Source of the DNA: a bacterium | GTDB lineage: Bacteria > Myxococcota_A > Bradymonadia > UBA7976 > UBA1532 | Assembly (NCBI GenBank): GCA_030426085.1 | Contig: JAUHYW010000001.1 | Span: 62,001-126,000 of the forward strand | Length of the DNA stretch: 64,000 nt | Direction: 5' to 3' | Shown: positions 31,472 to 32,157 of the stretch, one piece after another | Layout of the letters: each line of letters opens with the position of its first letter | How positions within the stretch are numbered: position 1 is the first letter of the stretch | The notes under the pieces: generated by a model | The model's database searches: none | The model's input: only the letters and a program-made list of their open reading frames with translations | What the model was told of the DNA's origin: nothing | Translations under genes and position numbers: made by a program

Positions 31472-32157
31472 GTGAGCAACCCGACCCCCGACGCCCATCA
31501 CATGACCGCCGCGGTCCGCCGCAAAGGCGCCCGCACCCGGCGGCAGCACGGGCTCTTCAACCGTTGGGACCCGGCAAGAAACAGCTCGGGGCTGCGGCCG
31601 CCATCTCGACCCCCATTCGCCGCTTACCTCCTCGCGCACTTCCTCGACGCGCCCCCTGGTGCGCTCGCCCTTCGGGCTGCGCGCCGGGCCTACGCCCCGT
31701 CGGGTCGCGGGCTTGGCCCCCTTCGTCGTGCGCTGCGGGGGCGCTGGCGACTGGGGGCCGATCTGGCGCCCTCGCCTGGCCGAGTTGTTTCTTGCCGGGC
31801 CCTGACGTGCGCGCGCTGCAAGGCCCCCGGGCCGACCGCATCCGGTCCCGCATCGACGAGATCGACGCCCTGCTCGCCCGGGACACCCGGGTCGAGAAGG
31901 CGCCGGTCTGGCGGGGCGGCGAGCGGGTGGGCACGACCGAGCGGGCGCTGCCGCTCCTGCCCTCGGAGCGCGCGCTGCACATGGCCCGCCGTCGCCGGCT
32001 GCGGGAGAGCCTCGACGCGCTCGCCCCGCCCGAGCTGAGGCGGGACTTCCTGGCGATGCTGCCGGGCTACGCCGAGCAGCACGGCTTCGATCGGGAGATT
32101 ATGCTGGCGGTGGGGGTCCCGGCGCGCGACCTCGACGAGGCTGGCATCGCCGACTGA
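31472..32157 (+). pseudogene. small hypothetical gene interrupted by a 230-bp inserted element
   Basis: Two parts of one reading frame can be recovered. From the GTG at 31472 (MSNPTPDAHHMTAAVRRKGA) it reads 33 codons to GAC at 31568-31570. The second part resumes at GTG 31807 (VRALQGPRADRIRSRIDEID) and runs to the stop at 32157. Removing 31571-31806 joins them as GLFNRWD-VRALQGPRADR and gives a 149-aa protein with good coding character. The intervening DNA shifts the frame by two bases. Alternatively a shorter protein may still be made from 31807 or from the TTG at 31564. Function unknown; the second half is Arg/Leu-rich and helical, ending AVGVPARDLDEAGIAD. Confidence 0.6.
31570..31799. mobile_element. 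MITE-like element with 20-bp terminal inverted repeats
   Basis: Left end CCCGGCAAGAAACAGCTCGG (31570-31589) and right end CCGAGTTGTTTCTTGCCGGG (31780-31799) are inverted copies with one mismatch. The 190 bp between them has no credible ORF but contains short palindromes (e.g. GCGCTCGCCCTTCGGGCTGCGC region near 31659). GAC occurs just outside both ends (31568-31570, 31804-31806) and could be a 3-bp target duplication. No transposase is present, so movement would need an enzyme encoded elsewhere. I saw no second copy in the window. It splits a small gene. Confidence 0.6.

Follow-up and report, generated by a model that had tools for sequence, protein, structure and literature searches.

A palindromic MITE-like element interrupts a small conserved gene and carries a central module shared with other MITE-like families

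A small conserved gene in two parts

Near the middle of the window, the 64,000-bp stretch of contig JAUHYW010000001.1 analysed here, a small gene lies on the forward strand in two parts. The N-terminal part (31472–31564) begins with a GTG start codon and runs for 31 codons to the residues HGLFNR. It aligns to orthologues over residues 10–31, and 21 residues of it are 62% identical to the congener (E = 2.6e-6). The C-terminal part (31806–32157, TGA stop at 32155) is now out of the frame set by the start codon; its amino-acid identity is 68% to the congener and 53–60% to eight other orthologues. The gene is single-copy in the window's genome and belongs to a conserved family of about 149–150 residues. 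No Pfam or NCBIfam model matches this family, and the gene is lineage-specific.

A search with the C-terminal part identified nine uninterrupted orthologues across eight related genomes, including the syntenic locus of the congener, so an empty site exists; none of them contains the interrupting DNA as coding sequence. Across the insertion point all orthologues read FN[RK]Y[IL][RK][AS]L[QK]G. The gene upstream, of 416 residues, is 91% identical between the window and the congener, the gene downstream is 87% identical, and the same upstream gene adjoins eight of the nine orthologous loci. A first-pass annotation of the window had proposed that removing 31571–31806 would rejoin the two coding parts into a 149-aa frame. 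This excision does so, and removal of 31567–31805, as defined by the family alignment described below, restores a frame of 148 aa. The net addition, element plus duplication, is 239 bp within codons 31–32. Because 239 is 2 modulo 3, the gene is frameshifted by two bases, as had been claimed. Translation in the native frame enters the element and terminates after 188 aa.

The interrupted gene is less similar to its congener counterpart (68%) than its neighbours are (87–91%). In a relative rate comparison using eight outgroup sequences, we found no excess of change in the C-terminal part on the window lineage: 8–12 differences are specific to the window and 10–12 to the congener. As both lineages change at the same rate, the low identity is no proof of decay, and it is the reading frame alone that points to a loss of function. 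Perhaps the insertion is recent, or perhaps the gene still yields a shortened product.

The interrupting element and its family

The interruption is a palindromic MITE-like element of 236 bp (31567–31802, no strand assigned), delimited by comparison with other copies. The first-pass annotation had described a MITE-like element of 230 bp that splits a small gene; this was right in substance, with the size, ends and target duplication needing revision. The 20-bp terminal repeats that it reported, with one mismatch, are present at 31570–31589 and 31780–31799, where the chance expectation for such a pair is 0.05 in the window. Family alignment lengthens them to 23 bp with two mismatches in the window copy, placing the left repeat at 31567–31589 on the forward strand and the right repeat at 31780–31802 on the reverse strand. 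The element can fold back on itself over almost its full length (DNA fold z = −5.4).

At the junctions, the sequence reads CGTTG before the element and TGACGTG after it. The 3-bp flanks of the window copy, TTG (31564–31566) and TGA (31803–31805), neither assigned to a strand, thus differ from each other. Since orthologues encode Arg/Lys-Tyr-Ile/Leu at this point, the sequence before insertion would have been CGT-TAC-GTG with TTA as the target. Comparison with the family boundary and the orthologues suggests that the true target duplication is probably TTA, with one base since changed on each side. The trinucleotide GAC does occur at both ends (31568–31570 and 31804–31806), as previously noted, but it is not the target duplication, because family alignment places the first GAC in the terminal repeat.

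The element is one of many. A search of its own assembly (10.1 Mb, 178 contigs) returned at least 51 matches, the best of them, at C170:7207–7444, being 97% identical, and pattern searches with the element ends gave at least 46 matches compared with one for a reversed control. The analysis covered 28 copies with paired ends, of which 23 come from this genome and five from the congener; copy numbers are lower bounds. Their sizes fall into discrete classes of 54–58, 69, 176–180 and 232–237 bp. Identical 3-bp flanks are found in 14 of the 28 copies (null 2.4%, p = 5e-16), and 33 of the 56 flanks are TNA (null 1.8%, p = 4e-43). The family therefore has what is expected of a MITE: terminal inverted repeats, a target-site duplication, dispersed copies without an internal transposase gene, and an empty site. 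The end of contig C160 and the start of contig C150 each break inside a copy of the element and their sequences overlap, so these contigs are probably adjacent in the genome.

The family appears to be confined to one genus. Element ends are present in two of 57 genomes of the class, both from this genus, and no terminal repeats were found outside it in the 57 genomes, in genome_contigs or in viral_contigs; plasmids and phages contain no similar DNA. In a collection of 85,000 species, which may omit the window's genome, the ends occur only in the uncultured MAG JAUHXC01 isolate 2_bin.46, at the same positions as in the congener. The MITE family itself is undescribed, but of an already known kind, and it is documented here in an uncultured lineage, together with a clean empty site.

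Proposed transposition and alternative explanations

TNA targets are characteristic of the IS1031/ISL2-type elements of the IS5 family and of their MITEs. The present family shares with them the 3-bp TNA duplication and terminal repeats that start with GG. In contrast to those elements, no IS5-type transposase with the ends of the window element was found in the genus. The genus lacks the Pfam families DDE_Tnp_4 and DUF4096, no element ends lie near the three DDE_Tnp_1 genes of the window's own assembly, and unpaired terminal repeats, when followed, led only to truncated copies or contig ends. The autonomous parent suggested as a check by the first-pass annotation was thus not encountered by end patterns or beside the DDE_Tnp_1 genes of this genome, which is 95% complete and fragmented. 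All three DDE_Tnp_1 genes lie near contig starts, as collapsed insertion sequences would.

We conclude with high confidence that a non-autonomous palindromic MITE-like element, most likely mobilized in trans by an IS5-type transposase, frameshifted a small conserved gene. In the mechanism we propose, the 23-bp ends would be recognized by such an enzyme, or by one of a different type that shares its target rule. The transposase would cut with a 3-bp stagger at a TNA target and leave a 3-bp duplication; one copy would have entered codons 31–32 of the gene, adding the 239 bp that shift its frame. The 56-bp centre of the element, a dispersed two-hairpin unit of the genus, was probably gained separately.

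Could the locus be explained in other ways? The strong folding of the element, and a dispersed hairpin core in which two pairs are changed on both sides, would also suit a conserved structured RNA or a REP/BIME-like repeat that was spread by other means, such as a RAYT enzyme. For the element as a whole we consider this very improbable: the 3-bp TNA duplications and long terminal repeats indicate a cut-and-paste DDE transposase, and Rfam has no match at the element. Such a reading may apply to the central module alone. Still harder to credit is an artefact of assembly or binning. The genome is split into 178 contigs, and repeats do break contigs, copies of the element standing at two contig ends. 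The insertion, however, is internal to a contig of 287 kb and has syntenic genes to its left and right, and its position and flanks agree with the TNA target rule of the family.

A different question, compatible with MITE insertion, is whether the gene is partly kept, with a shortened protein made from the GTG at 31807 or from within the element, which would supply expression signals. The downstream frame is open across the entire element and there is no decay against the outgroups. Open frames are, however, uninformative in a genome of 74% GC, the conserved N-terminal residues, about 30 in number, would be missing, and a search for a promoter-like site found none. We therefore regard a surviving product as unlikely, though less so than the two explanations above, and favour disruption of the gene by the MITE-like element.

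Several known elements resemble this family. The Correia or NEMIS elements of Neisseria are short and non-coding, have terminal repeats of about 24 bp and a short target duplication, and disrupt genes; they occur with and without an internal sequence of about 50 bp (155 and 107 bp), which bears an IHF site, and they target TA (PMC2229807, PMC2649163). By description, our family is similar in its short non-coding form, repeat length, short target duplication, gene disruption and optional internal sequence, and differs in targeting TNA. ERIC sequences are likewise palindromic and MITE-like and are sometimes found at the 3' ends of genes (PMC2229807, PMC10969869), but they have 7-bp terminal repeats and TA at their ends (PMC2229807), whereas the present family has 23-bp repeats and its TNA target is often the stop codon itself.

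Stop codons as landing sites

Seven of the 28 copies have a 3-bp flank that coincides exactly with the stop codon of a flanking gene, compared with 4% expected from the TNA sites of the window (p = 9e-5). For this count, an ORF was taken as a flanking gene if it spanned 150 codons or more and had coding-like codon use, as judged by a heuristic codon model trained on the window. TAA and TGA are TNA words, so insertion there regenerates the stop. The TNA rule makes stop codons frequent targets in a genome of 74% GC, and an insertion that duplicates the stop should cause little harm. Selection against insertions within genes probably adds to the excess.

A central module shared between families

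Two copies, L003 and L005, match the window copy almost exactly except that 56–57 bp of its centre are missing from them. Alignment with these copies, together with the fold, delimits a two-hairpin module of 56 bp at 31664–31719 on the forward strand. In other subfamilies, copies of 177 and 234 bp differ in the same way at a site across the small apex hairpin, and the module there keeps its orientation; this placement would imply that it was gained more than once.

The module contains a 32-bp hairpin core (31687–31718, forward strand) that recurs in two other MITE-like families and as stand-alone repeats in the genus. The core has at least 19 copies in this genome and at least 30 in that of the congener; 55 other genomes of the class gave no copy. 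A two-hairpin fold is seen in most copies. Two outer pairs are changed on both sides, giving modest support for a conserved hairpin.

The core is central in both of the other families. One has the ends CAGATCCCGGGGAAAGT and a CTAG target duplication, and measures 211–212 bp with the module (L185, L187 and L189 in this genome, L188 in the congener) and 155 bp without it (L192, L194, L196 and L200 in this genome, L203 and L209 in the congener). The other, with TACAG termini, has the ends ACAGCRGGCGAACACTGAA and perhaps a TA target; its copies are 204 bp with the module (L186, L190 and L191, all in the congener) and 161 bp without it (L195, L197, L199, L201 and L207 in the congener, L198 in this genome). 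Copies with and without the module at a fixed site exist in all three MITE-like families, whose ends are unrelated and whose target rules differ. Stand-alone copies of the core are clustered or arranged as inverted pairs (L164, L173, L175 and L178); in the stretches inspected, where ORFs were judged by codon use and by eye, no transposase gene was recognized between the clustered copies.

These observations raise the possibility, which we put forward tentatively, that the module of 43–57 bp moves independently, inserting at or close to the centre, the hairpin apex, of other palindromic elements. If mobile by itself, it would be a parasite of parasites, housed in the loops of palindromic elements. 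An optional centre is not in itself new, given the two forms of the Correia element. The internal 50 bp of that element is not reported from unrelated families in the literature examined, however, whereas the module described here is common to three. To our knowledge, based on a non-exhaustive search of open papers, no centre common to families with unrelated ends has been described. The shared module is the unusual part of this system, and its mechanism is putative. As a dispersed two-hairpin unit it resembles REP and REPIN sequences (PMC3116915, PMC2817692), but unlike them it sits within other elements at fixed sites.
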